From: Idiomarina sp.
GTDB lineage: Bacteria > Pseudomonadota > Gammaproteobacteria > Enterobacterales > Alteromonadaceae
Length of the DNA: 64,000 bases
Assembly: GCA_022565355.1 (NCBI GenBank)
Contig: JAIUMU010000005.1
Span: 62,001 to 126,000 of the forward strand
Direction of reading: 5' to 3'
In this document: positions 14,957 to 54,746 of the stretch, one piece after another
How the letters are laid out: the number at the start of each line of letters is the position of its first letter
Position numbering within the stretch: position 1 is the first letter of the stretch
Made by a program: the position numbers and the translations under genes
The notes under the pieces: model-generated
The model's input: the letters and a program-made list of their open reading frames with translations, nothing else
What the model was told of the DNA's origin: nothing
The model's database searches: none

Positions 14957-15601
14957 GTGATCATCGTGGCAAGCGAACTTCCGGCAAAAGATCAGTATAT
15001 CAGCACATCTGCAGCAGCTAAGTTACTTGGGGTTTCCGTTGGAACCGTGCAACAAATGGTTGAGAATGGCGAGCTTACTGCCTGGAAAACCGCAGGAGGG
15101 CATCGGCGCATTGATAAGCAATCGGTGGTTGAACGCCAGCATCAGCATACAACACCCCCAACTACTCCTGAAAGCCGATCCCAGTTTGTAAAGCAATTGC
15201 AGGCGCAAAAGCCGCAACCGATGCAAATATTAGTAGCGGAAGACGATCCAGTAACGATTAAAATCTACCAACATACCTTTGGTGATTTCAGTGATCTTAT
15301 CAATGTATATTATGCGCAAGATGGTATTGAGGCATTACTGCAGCTCGGGCAAAAGCCATTTGATTTATTAATCCTCGACCTCGATATTCCATATGTTGAT
15401 GGCTACGAAATGCTACAAAAAATTGGCAAGAACCCAGATTTACAAGCCCTGCATATCTTAATTGTTACCGGCACCGATGTGAGTAAATCAGCTCACCAAC
15501 AAAAGGTATTGGAAGATATTACTGTACTTAATAAGCCTATCGACCGTTCATTCCTGCGCGGCTACATTCAAGGCGCTGCCAACATGAAAAAAACATCATA
15601 A
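14957..15601 (+). CDS. Excisionase/MerR-like HTH plus C-terminal receiver (REC) domain
   Basis: YISTSAAAKLLGVSVGTVQQMVENGELTAWKTAGGHRRID then QILVAEDDPVTIKI...LLILDLDIPYVDGYE. Confidence 0.85.
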   Translation: MIIVASELPAKDQYISTSAAAKLLGVSVGTVQQMVENGELTAWKTAGGHRRIDKQSVVERQHQHTTPPTTPESRSQFVKQLQAQKPQPMQILVAEDDPVTIKIYQHTFGDFSDLINVYYAQDGIEALLQLGQKPFDLLILDLDIPYVDGYEMLQKIGKNPDLQALHILIVTGTDVSKSAHQQKVLEDITVLNKPIDRSFLRGYIQGAANMKKTS

Positions 15602-15692
15602 AAAGCAAGCCAGCTATTGTTTATATCAATTTTGGTGTTTACCTATAGAGTTTAGCATTGTAAACTGCTACAAATTCTTAAGGTATTCACCA

Positions 15693-17447
15693 GTGCACAT
15701 CCAAAAACAAGCGCAGAACAAAAAACTGGGCACACATCAGCCTACCGCAGTACTGATTGACGACGACGCTAGTTCGTTGTTGATTACTTCGTGGTTGCTG
15801 AAACGGCAAGGCTATCAAATTGTAACGATTCAACATCTTCCTGATGATTTGGATAATTTTATCGCCAACCCACCTTTGGTTGTTGATGTATTTGTGATTG
15901 ATTATTGCTTAGAGAATACGAACGCCTTACAAATCATTTCACGCTTAAACACCATTCCCTACTTTGCAAAGATTCCGAAGGTAGTGGTAACTAGCCTACG
16001 CGATGATCAAATTGAGCGCCATGGCCTTGGCGGTGGAGCCGTTGAGTTCATTACCAAACCGTTCAATAAACAAAATTTTGCGCAACGTGTACAACTAGCC
16101 CATCGCAAAGATCTGCGAGTAAGTTATTCGCCGCAAAGTATTATTGATGAGTTAACTCAGTTGTCAACAGTTGAAGGTATAGCAGCTAACGCCCCTCACA
16201 ATGCATTGCTGCAAAGTGAGTATTCGGTAGTAGTGATTGAAATTGCCAACTTAGACAAAATCAATAACGTAAGGGGCCGTTCAATTGGCAACCTTACTTT
16301 AAAGAACATGGCCCTTCGATTACAAGAGTTTGCGAGTAACGAGGTAATCCTGCTGCGCACTAGTAACACCCGCTTTGCTGTGATATCTCCAACACTAACT
16401 CAAAGTACACTAGAAGAGTTTCAAACGCGCCTTACTAAACTGGCAAATCGACCAATTAGTAAAGGCCATCAAGATGTATTTGTAGTACTAAGAACCGGCG
16501 TTGCCCATAGTTCTCAAGGTGCCACCCACCTCGAGGGTGTTGAGAACCGCTTTCGGGAGCTATTAGAGGCAACGATCGCTAATGCCTGCTTAGCTGTATC
16601 GCTCGCAAAATCGAAAAATAAATCCGAAATTGAATTGTTTAGTAAGAGTGCAAAGAAAGAACTAGGGCGCTTACACGTTCTTGAAAGTGCAATTTACTCC
16701 GGTTTAGTAAAGCAACAGCTTGAAGTGCATTATCAACCGCAAGTGAATATCGATACCGGAGAGCTCGTTGGAGTTGAGGCACTCGCTCGCTTACAAACTC
16801 CGGAGCTTGGTGTGGTTAGCCCAGCAGAATTGATTCCCATTCTAGAAGCCACGAATGCCATTCATGAAATTGGTTTGCACATCTTTGATATTGTTTTTAA
16901 AGATCTTGCAACGCTAAAAGAGAGCGTAACCGTGGCAGTGAATGTATCTGCTTACCAATTAAAGCGGGGTAATTTTTCTAAATCTATTCTTTGGATGGCG
17001 AAAAAGCACAAAGTAAATCCGCGTAGAGTAGAAATTGAAATTACCGAAACCTCCGCGCTTGATATGTTGGGGGTATCTAAACAGAACCTGATTGATTTAG
17101 CCAGTTTCGGTTTCAAGCTCACACTTGATGATTTTGGCATCGGTTATTCAAATCTCGATTACTTGCTTGCGCTGCCAATAGCGAAACTTAAAATCGACCG
17201 AGAGTTTATCAGTAGATTTCCAGTCGATGATAGCAGCAGAAATATTGTAAAAAGCCTAATGTACTTGGCGCATTTGGAAGGAATCCAAATTTTGGCTGAG
17301 GGCGTTGAAACAGAACTGCAACACAACGAATTACGCAATATCAAAGTTTCCCTTGCTCAAGGCTTCTACTATGGTAAACCAATGCCATTAGCGGTTCTTC
17401 ATGATCGCTTACAAGCTAACACCAGTAATCACTCACGATTAGGCTAA
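15693..17447 (+). CDS. REC - degenerate GGDEF - EAL response regulator (putative c-di-GMP phosphodiesterase)
   Basis: REC with VIDYCLEN Asp; GGDEF site reads RTSNTRFAVI (degenerate); EAL residues kept: VEALARL, NVSAYQL, EIEITET, LDDFGIGYSNLDYL, KLKIDREF, AEGVETE, AQGFYYG. Confidence 0.88.
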   Translation: MHIQKQAQNKKLGTHQPTAVLIDDDASSLLITSWLLKRQGYQIVTIQHLPDDLDNFIANPPLVVDVFVIDYCLENTNALQIISRLNTIPYFAKIPKVVVTSLRDDQIERHGLGGGAVEFITKPFNKQNFAQRVQLAHRKDLRVSYSPQSIIDELTQLSTVEGIAANAPHNALLQSEYSVVVIEIANLDKINNVRGRSIGNLTLKNMALRLQEFASNEVILLRTSNTRFAVISPTLTQSTLEEFQTRLTKLANRPISKGHQDVFVVLRTGVAHSSQGATHLEGVENRFRELLEATIANACLAVSLAKSKNKSEIELFSKSAKKELGRLHVLESAIYSGLVKQQLEVHYQPQVNIDTGELVGVEALARLQTPELGVVSPAELIPILEATNAIHEIGLHIFDIVFKDLATLKESVTVAVNVSAYQLKRGNFSKSILWMAKKHKVNPRRVEIEITETSALDMLGVSKQNLIDLASFGFKLTLDDFGIGYSNLDYLLALPIAKLKIDREFISRFPVDDSSRNIVKSLMYLAHLEGIQILAEGVETELQHNELRNIKVSLAQGFYYGKPMPLAVLHDRLQANTSNHSRLG

Positions 17448-17481
17448 TAAGTGCGAACCATATAAATAAGGAGTGTTATGA

Positions 17482-17835
17482 ATGCCTTTGCAAAGATTAT
17501 TAAGTGAATTTGATTACGATACCGATTTTGTTGCTGATCTACTTTTCACTATTGGCAATGAAAGCAAACAACATTTGGAGCGAATGCAGAGCTCACTCCA
17601 GCAAGAGAAGCCGATTGCGCCAAACGAATTGCAGCGTATTGCTCACTTAATGAAATCAACGGCAAATACGGTTGGCTTATATGAGTTAAGCAGCAATGCA
17701 GATGCAATTGAACAGCATATTGCCAAGTTGGCACCTAGCTCAGATGAACAGCGTGATGAAGTGAATAAACTCATCAGTATCGCAACGGAAATTCACGATG
17801 TTGCGCAAAAATTGTTGCGGGAAATTGATACATGA
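17482..17835 (+). CDS. Hpt-domain phosphotransfer protein
   Basis: RIAHLMKSTANTVGLYELSSNADAIEQHI carries the Hpt AHxxKxxxxxxG pattern. Confidence 0.82.
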   Translation: MPLQRLLSEFDYDTDFVADLLFTIGNESKQHLERMQSSLQQEKPIAPNELQRIAHLMKSTANTVGLYELSSNADAIEQHIAKLAPSSDEQRDEVNKLISIATEIHDVAQKLLREIDT

Positions 17836-18728
17836 ATACCAGTGTAAGCACCCTTTCTAAATTCTTTGATGCTATCGAACATGGTTCGGTTGGCCTTAAA
17901 TATCTGCCCGTTATTGAATTAGTAGAAGGGGTTGCACATATTCATGGCATTTATTGCCAAATTCACTGGCCACATTATGAAACAATCAACATAGATTCAA
18001 TGTTTAGGCTCATTGAAAAAAATGGCCTTGGCACTATTGTAGATCAGTACTTTGCCGATATAGCGTTGGAAGAGATTGCAACCTCGAAAACCCTTAGTAC
18101 AAGAGATGATCGCGTTTTTATTTCTGCCTACATGGATTCGTTTAACAACAGCAAGTTTCTTGAGCATATAGTGCAGCGTGCGAATGAGCTTAAATTTGAT
18201 TTAAGCCGTTTGGTAATTAGCGTTCAAGAGCATTACCCTAACGAACAAAGCACGCAACACATTGAATTAATTCAACATGCTATGAAATACGGTATTCAGT
18301 TTTGCGGTGTGCTTGGAAAACAAAGCTCAACCCGTACAGAACTCATTCTTGGTAACGAGTTTTCTTTCTTAAGAATTGATAGTGCCCTAGTTCAAGAGGT
18401 AGGCACCAATTCACGTATCGAGAAGTATTTGCACAACTATTACGATACAGCCCACAACCTACAAAAAACAGTGGTCGCATGTGGTATTGATAACGAGCAT
18501 ACCTTTATCGCCATGCGCGCCAACGGATAAACAAAATTTACCGGCGGCTTCTTCTCAGATGCGCTATCGAAAAGCGAGCTTGAGCGCCTTATTCAGTATT
18601 GGTGCAATCGCCCTATACATCTTTCAGCAAGAGCACAACAAAGTGCTAAACTTGGAGTTCTCCACTTTCCTAGTAGTGATGAGTTACACAAAAACTCTCA
18701 CGTGATCGCATGGCCTAAGGCAAGATGA
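17832..18728 (+). pseudogene. Degenerate EAL-domain protein interrupted by in-frame TAA at 18528-18530 (annotated ORF ends at 18530)
   Basis: EAL-like scaffold with catalytic motifs lost. After the TAA the same frame continues TKFTGGFFSDALSKSELERLIQYWCNRPIHLSARAQQSAKLGVLHFPSSDELHKNSHVIAWPKAR and stops at 18726-18728, overlapping ATG 18725 of the next gene. Confidence 0.75.
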
Positions 18729-20413
18729 CAAATACTGAAACAACAACTGAAACTCTATTAATTAAAATCGCTCGGGAATATTTAAATCTTCCTCTTGAGC
18801 AGGCTGAACGGGCGATTCAATCCTCTCTGAAAGAAATGGCAACCTTTGTTGGTGCAGATCGTGCGTATATCTTCCGCTACGATCTTGTGGCTATGGAAGC
18901 ATCAAATACGTATGAATGGTGTGCAGAGGGAATTAGTGCGGAAATCGATAACCTGCAAAATACAGACGTAAGCTTTATTCCCGATTGGCTTGAGGCACAC
19001 AGCCAAGGTAAAGAGTTGTATATTCCTGATGTATTAGCACTACCTGCAGATAGCGGTATTCGAGAGATTCTAGAGCCCCAAGATGTAAAAAGCATTATCA
19101 CTGTGCCTATGCTTGATGATGGCAACTTAATTGGTTTTGTGGGCTTTGATAGCGTACGCAATCATCATGTTTACACCGATAAAGAACACAAGCTGTTATC
19201 CCTGTATGCAGAAATGCTGGTGAATATTGGTTCTCGAGAGGCAGCTTTTAATAAGCTTCTCGCTGAACGCGAGCGCGCAGAAAAGGCGAATAAAGAGAAA
19301 TCATTATTCTTAGCGAATATGAGCCATGAAATTCGCACACCACTAAACGCCATTATTGGTTATTGTGATCTATTAAATGAAACATCTCTCGATCAACAGC
19401 AGCATGAGTTCGTAACCACAGTACAGTATTCTTCCAATTTACTGCTCGGTATTGTGAACGATATCCTGGATTTCTCAAAAATAGAAGCCGGAAAGCTCGC
19501 CTTAGAACAGGAAGCAGTATCCCTATCTGCGATCGCTGAACAATTGTTCAAGCTATTCGAACAAAAAGCCGAAAAGAAGGGCATTGCACTCAATATATTG
19601 CTCGATGTAGGAGAGCATGATTGGGTAGTTACCGATACACTTCGCTTTACGCAAGTATTAATGAACCTCACGAATAATGCTCTGAAATTCACTTACACTG
19701 GCTCGATTCAGATCGTAATTAAATGTACCCAAGTGCATCGTCGCTTTGCGGATTATTATATCGCTGTAGAAGATTCCGGAATCGGCATGGACAAAGAGCT
19801 CGTGAGCCGATTATTTCAGCCTTTCGAGCAAGCCGACCACAGTACTAGCCGTAAATACGGTGGTACTGGGCTGGGTTTGGCGATCAGCCAGCGGATTATT
19901 AATGCGTTAGGGAGTAAGTTACAGGTAGAATCTGAGCCAGGAATCGGCTCTAAGTTTTACAGTAACCTAAGTTTTAAACGCGCAAATGCAATAGATACAA
20001 TAGACATCACGAAGCAAACAAATGCCATAGCAATCCCAGACCTTGCCCGATACAGCATTTTAATTGCTGAAGATGTGAAACTGAATCGTGATTTGTTGCG
20101 CCATTTATTCCAGCCTACAGGCTGTACCCTAACATTTGCGGAGAATGGCCAAGAGGCCGTTGATCTGGCCTTAAAGAGTAGCTTTGATCTTATTATTATG
20201 GATCTACAGATGCCCATTCTCGATGGCTTCGAAGCTAGTAAACGGATTACTGCAAATCAACCCAATACCAAAATTATCGCGCTTTCCGCGGCCTCTTCGG
20301 AATTAGATATTCAACGTTCAGCTGCATCTGGGATTCTTTTGCACCTTGCTAAGCCTGTGCGTAGATCTGAATTGTACAGTAGCGTACAAAGCACATTAAC
20401 ATCGAATACATGA
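18725..20413 (+). CDS. GAF - HisKA - HATPase - REC hybrid histidine kinase
   Basis: GAF region, FLANMSHEIRTPLNAIIGY H-box, YGGTGLGLAISQ, C-terminal REC IIMDLQMPILDG. Confidence 0.92.
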   Translation: MTNTETTTETLLIKIAREYLNLPLEQAERAIQSSLKEMATFVGADRAYIFRYDLVAMEASNTYEWCAEGISAEIDNLQNTDVSFIPDWLEAHSQGKELYIPDVLALPADSGIREILEPQDVKSIITVPMLDDGNLIGFVGFDSVRNHHVYTDKEHKLLSLYAEMLVNIGSREAAFNKLLAERERAEKANKEKSLFLANMSHEIRTPLNAIIGYCDLLNETSLDQQQHEFVTTVQYSSNLLLGIVNDILDFSKIEAGKLALEQEAVSLSAIAEQLFKLFEQKAEKKGIALNILLDVGEHDWVVTDTLRFTQVLMNLTNNALKFTYTGSIQIVIKCTQVHRRFADYYIAVEDSGIGMDKELVSRLFQPFEQADHSTSRKYGGTGLGLAISQRIINALGSKLQVESEPGIGSKFYSNLSFKRANAIDTIDITKQTNAIAIPDLARYSILIAEDVKLNRDLLRHLFQPTGCTLTFAENGQEAVDLALKSSFDLIIMDLQMPILDGFEASKRITANQPNTKIIALSAASSELDIQRSAASGILLHLAKPVRRSELYSSVQSTLTSNT

Positions 20414-20430
20414 TGAACATGGCATAGCAA

Positions 20431-22812
20431 ATGATACGCGAACACGTAGCCACCCAGCCCAAATCTCTAGTGTTAATGCTAAGTGGCTTACTGCTCGCTG
20501 TATTCGTTAATTTCTTCCCTGCCCCTTTTATTTACAGTAACCAATTATTTTTCGGTAATGCGATAGCAATCGCCTTCGCAGTTTTATATGGCCCTCGATT
20601 TGCACTGATCACATCGCTAGCCGCAAGCACCGTTACCTATATATATTGGCAACATGCGCTTGGTTTTATTCCATTTGCACTTGAAGTTCTGGTGGTAGTG
20701 TTTGCCCTACACATCAAGCGTAGTATCTTAATTTCCGGGCTACTATTTTGGCTCAGCTTGGGGCCTATCGTTGTGTTTGCCCTGTATTATCTATTCAGTG
20801 ATTTTTCCGCTACTGGCATTGAAACCATAACCCTCAAATACATCCTAAATGGTATTATGAATATACTGCTGGGTTACATCCTGTTTCATCTTGTTCGAGT
20901 TCTTAAACTCGAACAAAGCGTTCGCTACCGTATTACCACATCCGAACTCTTATTGAATAGTGGCTTTTTTATTGCACTCAGTATTTCTACACTCATTATT
21001 TACTTCTGGTTATTAGCCGTAAACAAAGAGCTGTACTCGCAACTAGAAACACGAGCTCTCAATTTCAGCAATGCTATTCAACAAACTACCGATAATCACA
21101 TCGAAAAACATATATTAGCGATTCGCACCCTCGCCAACACCATTACTGAAACTGCTGCAATTGAGTACCACCATAACTTGCTGCAGAATACCGGCAGGCT
21201 TTATCCAGCGTATATAACAATGCTAGCCACAGATGCTAACGGCGAGCTCATTGCTACCTGGCCAAGCGATATGCTGGCAAGAGCACAAGAAAGTGGCATT
21301 ACCAATGTGCGGGGGCGAGATTATTTCCAAGTTGCGAAAGAAAGTGGCTCTGCATTTGTATCGAATGCATTTCGCGGCCAAGGCTTTGGTAATGATCCCA
21401 TAGTGGCAATCTCTGCCCCCTACTATTTGCACGATCAGTTTGCGGGTGTGATCGAAGGCTCACTGAATCTAGCGGAACTGCATGAGTTTTTGTTACCAGA
21501 TACCCAACATGACGCCAATTATATTATTGCCGATGGTTCCGGTTCGGTGATCTACGCTTCACCTGAGTTACAGTTGTCACCCTTACAAGAGCTTGGGCAA
21601 ACGCTTTCCAATTACACATACAGTAATCAACCTACTCCCGTTGTATATGCCCCAACAGGCAATGAGTACGTAACTTACCAAGTACGATTACCACGAAGTG
21701 GCTGGAGCATTACAGCACTTATTCCAATGGGTGAGTATGAACAGAAATTAAGTAACTACCTATTTGGTTCCTTTGCTCTGCTACTGATACTATCTATCCT
21801 GTTTGGCACTATCACATATTTGATAGCCCGCATACTTACAAAGCCGATTGGCGTTTTAATTAACCATATTAATACGGCTAAAAGTAATAACGATATTATT
21901 CCCTTAGAGAAGCAGGAAATAGGGTATTTAAAAGAGTTAAATGATCTTACATCCGGCTATCACGATTTTACCGTGAACCTTAATAAAACAATGCGCAGCT
22001 TAAAGCGCAGTAACGTGCTGAATGAAGAACTTAATAACCGCTTGCAAATATTGAATACAAGCCTCGAAAAGCGTGTTTTACAGCGTACAGAACAGCTTGA
22101 ACTAGCACTTGAATCTGTGAAGGCCGCGAATGAAATGAAATCGAGCTTTATGGCGAATATGAGCCATGAAATCCGCACGCCGTTACATGGTATTTTGGGG
22201 ATGACAGAAGTTCTATTGCATCAACAACACCCAGAAGATGTACAGCAGCAGCTACAAATAATTCAGCAATCTGGGCAGCATTTACAAGTAATCTTAAATG
22301 ACATACTCGATTTCTCAAAACTAGAAGCCGGAAAGCTTAGTATTCACAGAAAGCCCATCAACATTGCTAGTTTCATTCATCGCCTTGCAGATTCATATCA
22401 AGCCAATGCCAGTAAAAAAGGATTAGCACTCAATACATACTTGGATAACAACCTGCCAAGTATGCTGCTCATTGATGAAGTGAGAGTACGGCAAATTTTA
22501 GGCAACCTAATAAGTAACGCGATCAAATTTACAGATAAGGGTAGTGCAAATATTCAGGTTAGCTATGCAAATAATACGCTCACAATCGCGATTATAGATA
22601 GCGGCATTGGTATTAGTGAAAGTGATATGAAACGTTTGTATCAACCCTTTCAACAGCTTGATGATAGTGGCGCGAGACGATACGAGGGTACTGGCTTAGG
22701 TTTAGCCATATCAATGCAATTGGCCCAACTTATGGGGGCAACCTTGGAGTGTAAAAGTACTGTTGGGAGTGGGACAACCTTCACATTAGCGCTGAAGGTT
22801 AAAGCGGTTTAA
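20431..22812 (+). CDS. Membrane histidine kinase with integral N-terminus, Cache-like periplasmic sensor, HAMP-like, HisKA and HATPase
   Basis: About eight TM segments, extracytoplasmic NVRGRDYFQVAKESG...GVIEGSLNL, FMANMSHEIRTPLHGILGM, YEGTGLGLAISM. Confidence 0.9.
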   Translation: MIREHVATQPKSLVLMLSGLLLAVFVNFFPAPFIYSNQLFFGNAIAIAFAVLYGPRFALITSLAASTVTYIYWQHALGFIPFALEVLVVVFALHIKRSILISGLLFWLSLGPIVVFALYYLFSDFSATGIETITLKYILNGIMNILLGYILFHLVRVLKLEQSVRYRITTSELLLNSGFFIALSISTLIIYFWLLAVNKELYSQLETRALNFSNAIQQTTDNHIEKHILAIRTLANTITETAAIEYHHNLLQNTGRLYPAYITMLATDANGELIATWPSDMLARAQESGITNVRGRDYFQVAKESGSAFVSNAFRGQGFGNDPIVAISAPYYLHDQFAGVIEGSLNLAELHEFLLPDTQHDANYIIADGSGSVIYASPELQLSPLQELGQTLSNYTYSNQPTPVVYAPTGNEYVTYQVRLPRSGWSITALIPMGEYEQKLSNYLFGSFALLLILSILFGTITYLIARILTKPIGVLINHINTAKSNNDIIPLEKQEIGYLKELNDLTSGYHDFTVNLNKTMRSLKRSNVLNEELNNRLQILNTSLEKRVLQRTEQLELALESVKAANEMKSSFMANMSHEIRTPLHGILGMTEVLLHQQHPEDVQQQLQIIQQSGQHLQVILNDILDFSKLEAGKLSIHRKPINIASFIHRLADSYQANASKKGLALNTYLDNNLPSMLLIDEVRVRQILGNLISNAIKFTDKGSANIQVSYANNTLTIAIIDSGIGISESDMKRLYQPFQQLDDSGARRYEGTGLGLAISMQLAQLMGATLECKSTVGSGTTFTLALKVKAV

Positions 22813-22819
22813 AAGAAGG

Positions 22820-23239
22820 TTATAGAAACAAACGAGTAATTGTGTTTGCGAGCTGTTCACGCGTATATGGCTTGGTGAGGGTGCCTTGAATATCGAGCTT
22901 TTCGTATTTACCTTCACTAAGGCCAATGGCATCGGCTGTTAACAATAAAATAGGGGCGGAAGAAGCTGCTTTATCTTCTCCCGCCCGAATCATCTCAACT
23001 GCTTTTATACCATCCACAATCGGCATCATCGCGTCTAATATAATGAGATCAAAGGTTTCCTCGCGAGCCTTACTTATCGCCTGTTCACCATTCTCAACTA
23101 TCGTGCATCTCGCCCCCAACGATTGCAGAAAGAAACGAATAATTAACTGACTCGCTTGGTTATCTTCCGCTACAAGAACAGTAAGATTCTCCGGGAGAGC
23201 TGACAACTCTTGCTCACTGTTCACTATAAAGGTACCCAA
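22820..23239 (-). CDS. Stand-alone receiver-domain response regulator
   Basis: LTVLVAEDNQASQLIIRFFLQSLGARCTIVENGEQA...LIILDAMMPIVDG. Confidence 0.9.
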   Translation of the reverse strand: MGTFIVNSEQELSALPENLTVLVAEDNQASQLIIRFFLQSLGARCTIVENGEQAISKAREETFDLIILDAMMPIVDGIKAVEMIRAGEDKAASSAPILLLTADAIGLSEGKYEKLDIQGTLTKPYTREQLANTITRLFL

Positions 23240-52931: not shown

Positions 52932-54746
52932 ATGCACAGTGTAATTGAACAGGTAACTCAACGCATTGAAGAGCGCAGCGCCGAAGAACGGCAACGATAT
53001 TTAGCGCGAATGCAAAAAGCCCAACATAAAGGCCCGCATCGAGGCGCCTTATCATGCGGCAACTTGGCCCATGGGTTTGCCGCGTGCGGTAAAGACGACA
53101 AAGGTAATTTGCGCAGCCTAACCCGCGCCAATATTGGCATTGTTACTTCGTACAACGATATGCTTTCGGCACATCAACCCTACGAAAACTACCCAGAGCA
53201 ATTAAAGCAGGCGATTCGCGCAGTAGGTAGCGTGGCGCAAGTAGCTGGCGGTGTGCCAGCCATGTGTGATGGTGTTACGCAAGGCCAACCGGGTATGGAA
53301 CTCAGCTTATTAAGCCGCGATGTAATAGCCATGGCGGCCGCTGTAGGCTTATCGCACAATATGTTTGATGGCGGCTTAATGCTCGGCATTTGCGATAAAA
53401 TTGTACCTGGCTTATTAATTGCGGCTCTTAGTTTTGGCCATCTGCCATTTGTTTTCGTACCTGCGGGGCCAATGCCATCGGGCATTACCAACAAAGAAAA
53501 AGCGCGAGTGCGAGAGCTGTATGCCGAGGGCAAAGTAAGCAAAGCGGAACTGCTTGATGCCGAAGCGGCTTCCTATCATAGCGCCGGTACGTGCACCTTC
53601 TATGGCACTGCCAACTCCAATCAATTGGTAGTAGAAATGATGGGCCTGCAATTACCTGGCTCTTCATTTGTACACCCCGGCACGCCACTGCGTAACGAGC
53701 TAACTCGCGTTGCCGGCCAGCAGGTAACGCGCCTTACTGATCTAGGCTCTGAATATACGCCCATTTCTGCCATAGTTACGGCGAAAAGTATCGTAAACGG
53801 TATTGTTGGCTTGCTCGCAACGGGCGGCTCCACTAACCACACCATGCATTTAATTGCCGTGGCTCGCGCCGCCGGATATCTCGTGAACTGGGATGATTTT
53901 GCCGAACTATCATCGGTAACACCGTTGGTAACTCGTATTTATCCGAATGGTGATGCCGATATTAATCATTTCCAGCGCGCTGGCGGTATGGCATTCCTTA
54001 TCAAAACGCTGCTCGAAGCAGGGTTGTTACATAACGATGTGAAAACCGTTGCAGGTGATGGGCTCGAGCGCTATACCAAACGCCCAGAGTTAGAGAACGA
54101 CAAAGTTGTGTGGCGCGATGGGCCTACCGAATCGCTCGATGAAAGCGTATTACGCAGTGCGAAGCAGCCTTTCAGCTCGCATGGCGGGTTAGCCGTACTG
54201 AGCGGTAATTTAGGCCGCGCGGTAATGAAAACCTCAGCTATTCCGGAAGGTACCGAGAGCATTACTGCGCCTGCGGTGGTGTTTTCTAGCCAACATGAAC
54301 TCGATCGTGCCTTTCAGGCCGGCGAGCTCGATAAAGATTGTATTGTAGTGGTGCGCTTTCAAGGGCCCAAAGCCATTGGTATGCCCGAGCTGCATAAACT
54401 AACCCCACCCTTGGGTGTGCTGCAAAAACGAGGCTACAAAGTGGCGTTGGTTACCGATGGCAGAATGTCGGGCGCATCTGGCAAGGTACCAGCCGCTATT
54501 CATGTTACGCCAGAAGCGGTTGATGGTGGTTTGATTAGCAAAATTCAGCCGGGTGATTTAATTACCTTAGATGCGGAAAATGGCGTGTTAGAAGTGCTAG
54601 TAGACAGCCAAGTATTAGCCCAACGTGAAGCTGCAACAATAGATTTAACGGATAGCCATGAGGGTATGGGCCGCGAACTATTTACCGCCTTGCGCGCTAG
54701 TTTGAGCGGCGCAGAATCTGGCGCCTGCGCCTTCTTTAACGAATAG
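52932..54746 (+). CDS. edd: Phosphogluconate dehydratase
   Basis: [78 protein letters not shown]. Confidence 0.97.

Follow-up and report, generated by a model that had tools for sequence, protein, structure and literature searches.

The locus at positions 17832-18728 (forward strand) of the window, the whole 64,000-nucleotide stretch of DNA that was analysed, raises the question of why a gene with an EAL-like product is interrupted by a single in-frame TAA, and whether the 232 codons preceding it encode a complete protein. The frame opens with ATG 17832 and reaches the TAA at codon 233; the following 65 sense codons are in the same frame and end with TGA 18726-18728; this TGA and the kinase ATG 18725 overlap as ATGA. 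An overlap of the same type joins the Hpt gene to the pseudo-EAL gene at 17832-17835. Both the sequence and its translation agreed with the preliminary description on the course of this frame and on the two overlaps, and the peptide following the TAA was identical to the one quoted there. No second stop or frameshift was found when the tail was scanned from 18531 to 18728. The stop is situated mid-contig, in a 198-kb contig of a marine Aliidiomarina genome, and the results refer to one genome compared with distant orthologues. The features are listed in Table 1.

Table 1. Positions in the window of the interrupted gene, its parts and the other genes of the operon.
Feature	Position	Strand	Remarks
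Helix-turn-helix - receiver protein	14957..15601	+	first gene of the conserved set
Receiver - GGDEF - EAL protein	15693..17447	+	same operon; canonical EAL catalytic motifs
Hpt-domain gene	17482..17835	+	ATGA overlap with the pseudo-EAL gene; overlap in all orthologues
Pseudo-EAL gene, open part	17832..18530	+	232 codons and TAA; final strand and helix of the EAL barrel not reached
In-frame TAA	18528..18530	+	TAT or TAC (tyrosine) at that column in same-genus orthologues
Post-stop tail	18531..18728	+	65 sense codons and TGA; shows homology to the intact orthologues at their C-terminus
GAF - HisKA - HATPase - receiver hybrid kinase	18725..20413	+	intact; a TAAGG Shine-Dalgarno of its own, 4 bases ahead of the ATG

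The orthologues compared were those of Aliidiomarina halalkaliphila, A. sanyensis and Pseudidiomarina tainanensis, which together with the window's gene make four. These three relatives were recovered by an alignment-based scan, whereas single-sequence scans of genome-contig and viral-contig collections gave no relative. Besides the window's genome, a clear orthologue was present in two of the 19 genomes of the genus and in one genome from a different genus of the family; extending the search to 395 genomes of the order, at E 1e-30, yielded no further orthologue. The operon is accordingly patchy in its distribution, with clear pseudo-EAL orthologues in 3/19 Aliidiomarina genomes, counting the window's, and in one genome of Pseudidiomarina. 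The order Hpt - pseudo-EAL - GAF kinase was the same in all orthologous loci, and the two further upstream genes were present wherever the relative's contig was long enough. The order of all five genes was conserved between the window (14957-20413), locus L081 (6055-11519) and the P. tainanensis locus L083 (3628-8932).

The open run after the TAA is in itself unremarkable, as 65 codons without a stop have a chance of about 0.03 by composition, which is only modestly unlikely. The full codon usage of the tail scored below every other coding chunk in the window; the synonymous-only score was in the lowest 3% of the window chunks, yet inside the operon's own range. Since the length of the run and the codon usage are weak evidence, comparison with the relatives was needed. 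The local alignment scores of the tail with the two orthologous tails were 121 and 110, the maximum of 2000 shuffles being 45; the tails of the two intact orthologues scored 113 with each other. By homology, which is the proof here, the tail reads as real former coding sequence, and the earlier proposal that the intact gene was 17832-18728, with the tail as its coding continuation, was borne out. The tail was also considered as a separately started small protein; this was rejected, the only in-frame ATG, GTG or TTG codon being GTG 18702, at a distance of eight codons from the TGA. The ORF 18481-18705 bridges the TAA in another frame, but a frameshift product via this ORF was rejected because the tail homology sits in the original frame.

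Both same-genus orthologues are uninterrupted (A. halalkaliphila 301 aa, A. sanyensis 302 aa) and the alignment with them is gap-free around the stop site. The column of the TAA reads GGA TAT in A. halalkaliphila, GGA TAC in A. sanyensis and GGA TAA in the window, and a stop at this position was found in none of the three orthologues. In the comparison of orthologues proposed in the preliminary description, none ends at the TAA, and the tails of both same-genus genes match. A single base separates TAA from TAT and TAC. Because tyrosine is present in both same-genus orthologues, the parsimonious ancestral codon is a tyrosine codon and the change TAY to TAA; the CAA-type codon assumed previously, and with it a CAA to TAA transition, was rejected.

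The most probable explanation, which we hold with considerable confidence, is a recent lineage-specific nonsense mutation of a tyrosine codon to TAA in a conserved but catalytically dead EAL-domain gene. A recent nonsense mutation had been among the options named earlier, and it is favoured by the intact orthologues, the homologous tail and the absence of the stop from the relatives. The gene resembles bacterial single-substitution pseudogenes in having one in-frame stop, an orthologous sense codon one base away and a frame that is otherwise kept, and no difference from such single-nonsense pseudogenes was detected. The identity before and after the stop was 34/32% with A. halalkaliphila and 32/31% with A. 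sanyensis, in comparison with 32/32% before and after the same position for the intact pair. Of the sites that agree between the two intact orthologues, 43/74 before the stop and 13/21 after it are retained in the window (Fisher p = 0.81); with 65 residues at about 34% identity, modest decay or a constraint loss of moderate time would stay invisible. As no decay is visible in the tail, the stop is either recent or not real. The closest orthologues, at about 34% identity, are too distant for the mutation to be given an age.

The second of these alternatives, in which the TAA is a sequencing or assembly error and the gene of the organism is intact, with tyrosine at this codon, is the main rival, although we regard it as rather unlikely. 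Both the lack of any sign of relaxed constraint in the tail and the single base between TAA and TAT or TAC would be expected from an error. The genome, however, consists of 14 contigs with a completeness of 95% and a contamination of 0.01%, the site lies far from the contig ends, and polished assemblies seldom contain substitution errors. Moreover, the gene is weakly constrained and its real loss is therefore plausible.

The conservation of the tail to the same degree as the body would also fit leaky or programmed readthrough of the TAA, by which some full-length protein would be made and the tail kept under selection. This explanation, ranked least likely in the preliminary description, was judged very improbable. 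Precedents exist: in-frame stops with continuing selection were reported to be widespread in bacteria (PMC7918605), and in Shigella flexneri the diguanylate cyclase pseudogenes dgcE, dgcN and dgcQ are broken by stop codons, with c-di-GMP production measured and full-size protein seen for dgcQ and dgcN (PMC11327459). The pseudo-EAL gene is likewise a c-di-GMP family gene broken by a stop codon, but all its orthologues are without the catalytic residues. No relative has a stop here, and a recent mutation by itself accounts for the intact tail. The context here is UAA A, and no leakiness is known for a UAA with A as the next base. Folding of the RNA, both around the stop and after it, was no stronger than that of shuffles (z -0.01 and 1.08), and a stimulatory context or structured readthrough signal was rejected. 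Of the 45 tRNA genes found, each of which was read, none had an anticodon for TAA, TAG or TGA; a suppressor tRNA or a changed code was rejected as well. Still less probable is a role of leaky translation of the TAA in tuning the neighbouring Hpt/hybrid-kinase relay through a low proportion of full-length relative to truncated pseudo-EAL protein. The interruption is most probably an ordinary gene-breaking mutation and not a new decoding mechanism, a sequence error being less likely.

The protein matched Pfam PF00563 (EAL) over residues 12-242 with an E-value of 1.1e-19. Its AlphaFold model (pLDDT 79, pTM 0.81) gave Foldseek matches to crystal structures of EAL proteins, among them Bd1971 and BifA, with a TM-score of about 0.7-0.8, and the predicted fold is that of an EAL TIM barrel. 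Of the catalytic residues (EAL, N, ExTE, DD, K, EGxE, QG), almost every one was replaced, in the window as in all orthologues. The EAL glutamate is replaced by Tyr, His, Asp or Arg across the four orthologues; the DD pair and the EGxE glutamate are gone and the QG glutamine is replaced in all of them. The first Glu of ExTE and the column of the NxS asparagine are also changed in the orthologues, and the catalytic lysine is retained in just 2/4. The residues after the TAA occupy the place of the usual QG-x-x-FS-x-P segment, where the preliminary description had put them, and its reading of the domain as degenerate was supported. Judged from these replacements, the protein is predicted not to be an active EAL phosphodiesterase and the gene is an old, fast-evolving pseudoenzyme gene. 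Its identity was 34%, in comparison with 64% for the adjacent kinase, which marks it as already weakly constrained. The loss of the catalytic residues in all orthologues indicates that the loss of the catalytic signature preceded the mutation of the tyrosine codon to TAA.

Compared with the EAL family PF00563, the fold is shared and the pseudo-EAL protein differs by the replaced catalytic residues and by a C-terminal extension of about 45 residues beyond the EAL domain. YdiV/RflP are catalytically dead EAL regulators. The pseudo-EAL protein similarly has a stand-alone EAL fold without catalytic residues and would be expected to act via protein contact; unlike YdiV/RflP, it is encoded between the Hpt and hybrid kinase genes of a phosphorelay operon, and a likeness of partners is without sequence support. 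The intact protein is probably an interaction partner in the relay. Together with the helix-turn-helix - receiver, receiver - GGDEF - EAL, Hpt and GAF - kinase - receiver proteins it belongs to a c-di-GMP/phosphorelay operon. The comparison reveals that this operon, conserved in Aliidiomarina and Pseudidiomarina, keeps an EAL pseudoenzyme between the Hpt protein and the hybrid kinase though no catalytic site remains.

In the model, the stop immediately precedes the final strand (235-237); the final helix (247-259) and then the low-confidence extension come after this strand. The TAA would remove all three and, for this reason, the 232-residue product is probably unfolded or inactive rather than a stable barrel. 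That this product is instead a functional shortened pseudo-EAL protein with a dispensable tail seems most improbable. The P. tainanensis orthologue (L034 1501-2304; 267 aa) is indeed without the extension seen in Aliidiomarina, which is therefore not universal. However, this orthologue retains the region of the last strand and helix, before which the window product ends, and no orthologue ending at this point was found. The annotation should label the gene as interrupted pseudo-EAL and not as a complete 232-residue protein. The pseudo-EAL protein seems to be dispensable in at least one lineage.

The hybrid kinase gene downstream encodes 562 aa, the 64% identity being that with the A. halalkaliphila copy. 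The ATGA overlap between the pseudo-EAL and kinase genes was missing in 3/3 relatives: the genes are spaced by 47 bases in A. halalkaliphila and by 53 in P. tainanensis, and abut in A. sanyensis. Tight coupling is therefore not a conserved property, in contrast to the Hpt/pseudo-EAL overlap, which was conserved in all four. The kinase would still be translated from its own Shine-Dalgarno; the stop may lower its translation but is unlikely to abolish it. The earlier claim that the stop uncouples translation of the kinase was weakened by the TAAGG, the intact gene and the overlap missing from the relatives.

Another gene of the window, 52932-54746, ends with TAG and is followed in frame by a 336-codon open run, which holds a separate gene (VADIGGTNARFC, glucokinase-like). 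The TAG was rejected as an interruption, the run being an ordinary downstream neighbour. The receiver - GGDEF - EAL protein combines canonical EAL motifs with an apparent SNTRF at the place of the GGDEF signature, and is therefore predicted to be a phosphodiesterase only. Downstream of the operon in the window (20431-23239) are a further histidine kinase of 793 aa and a convergently oriented stand-alone receiver protein. In P. tainanensis the same pair is located upstream of the operon (L083 635-3427), which indicates that the same partners were rearranged around it.
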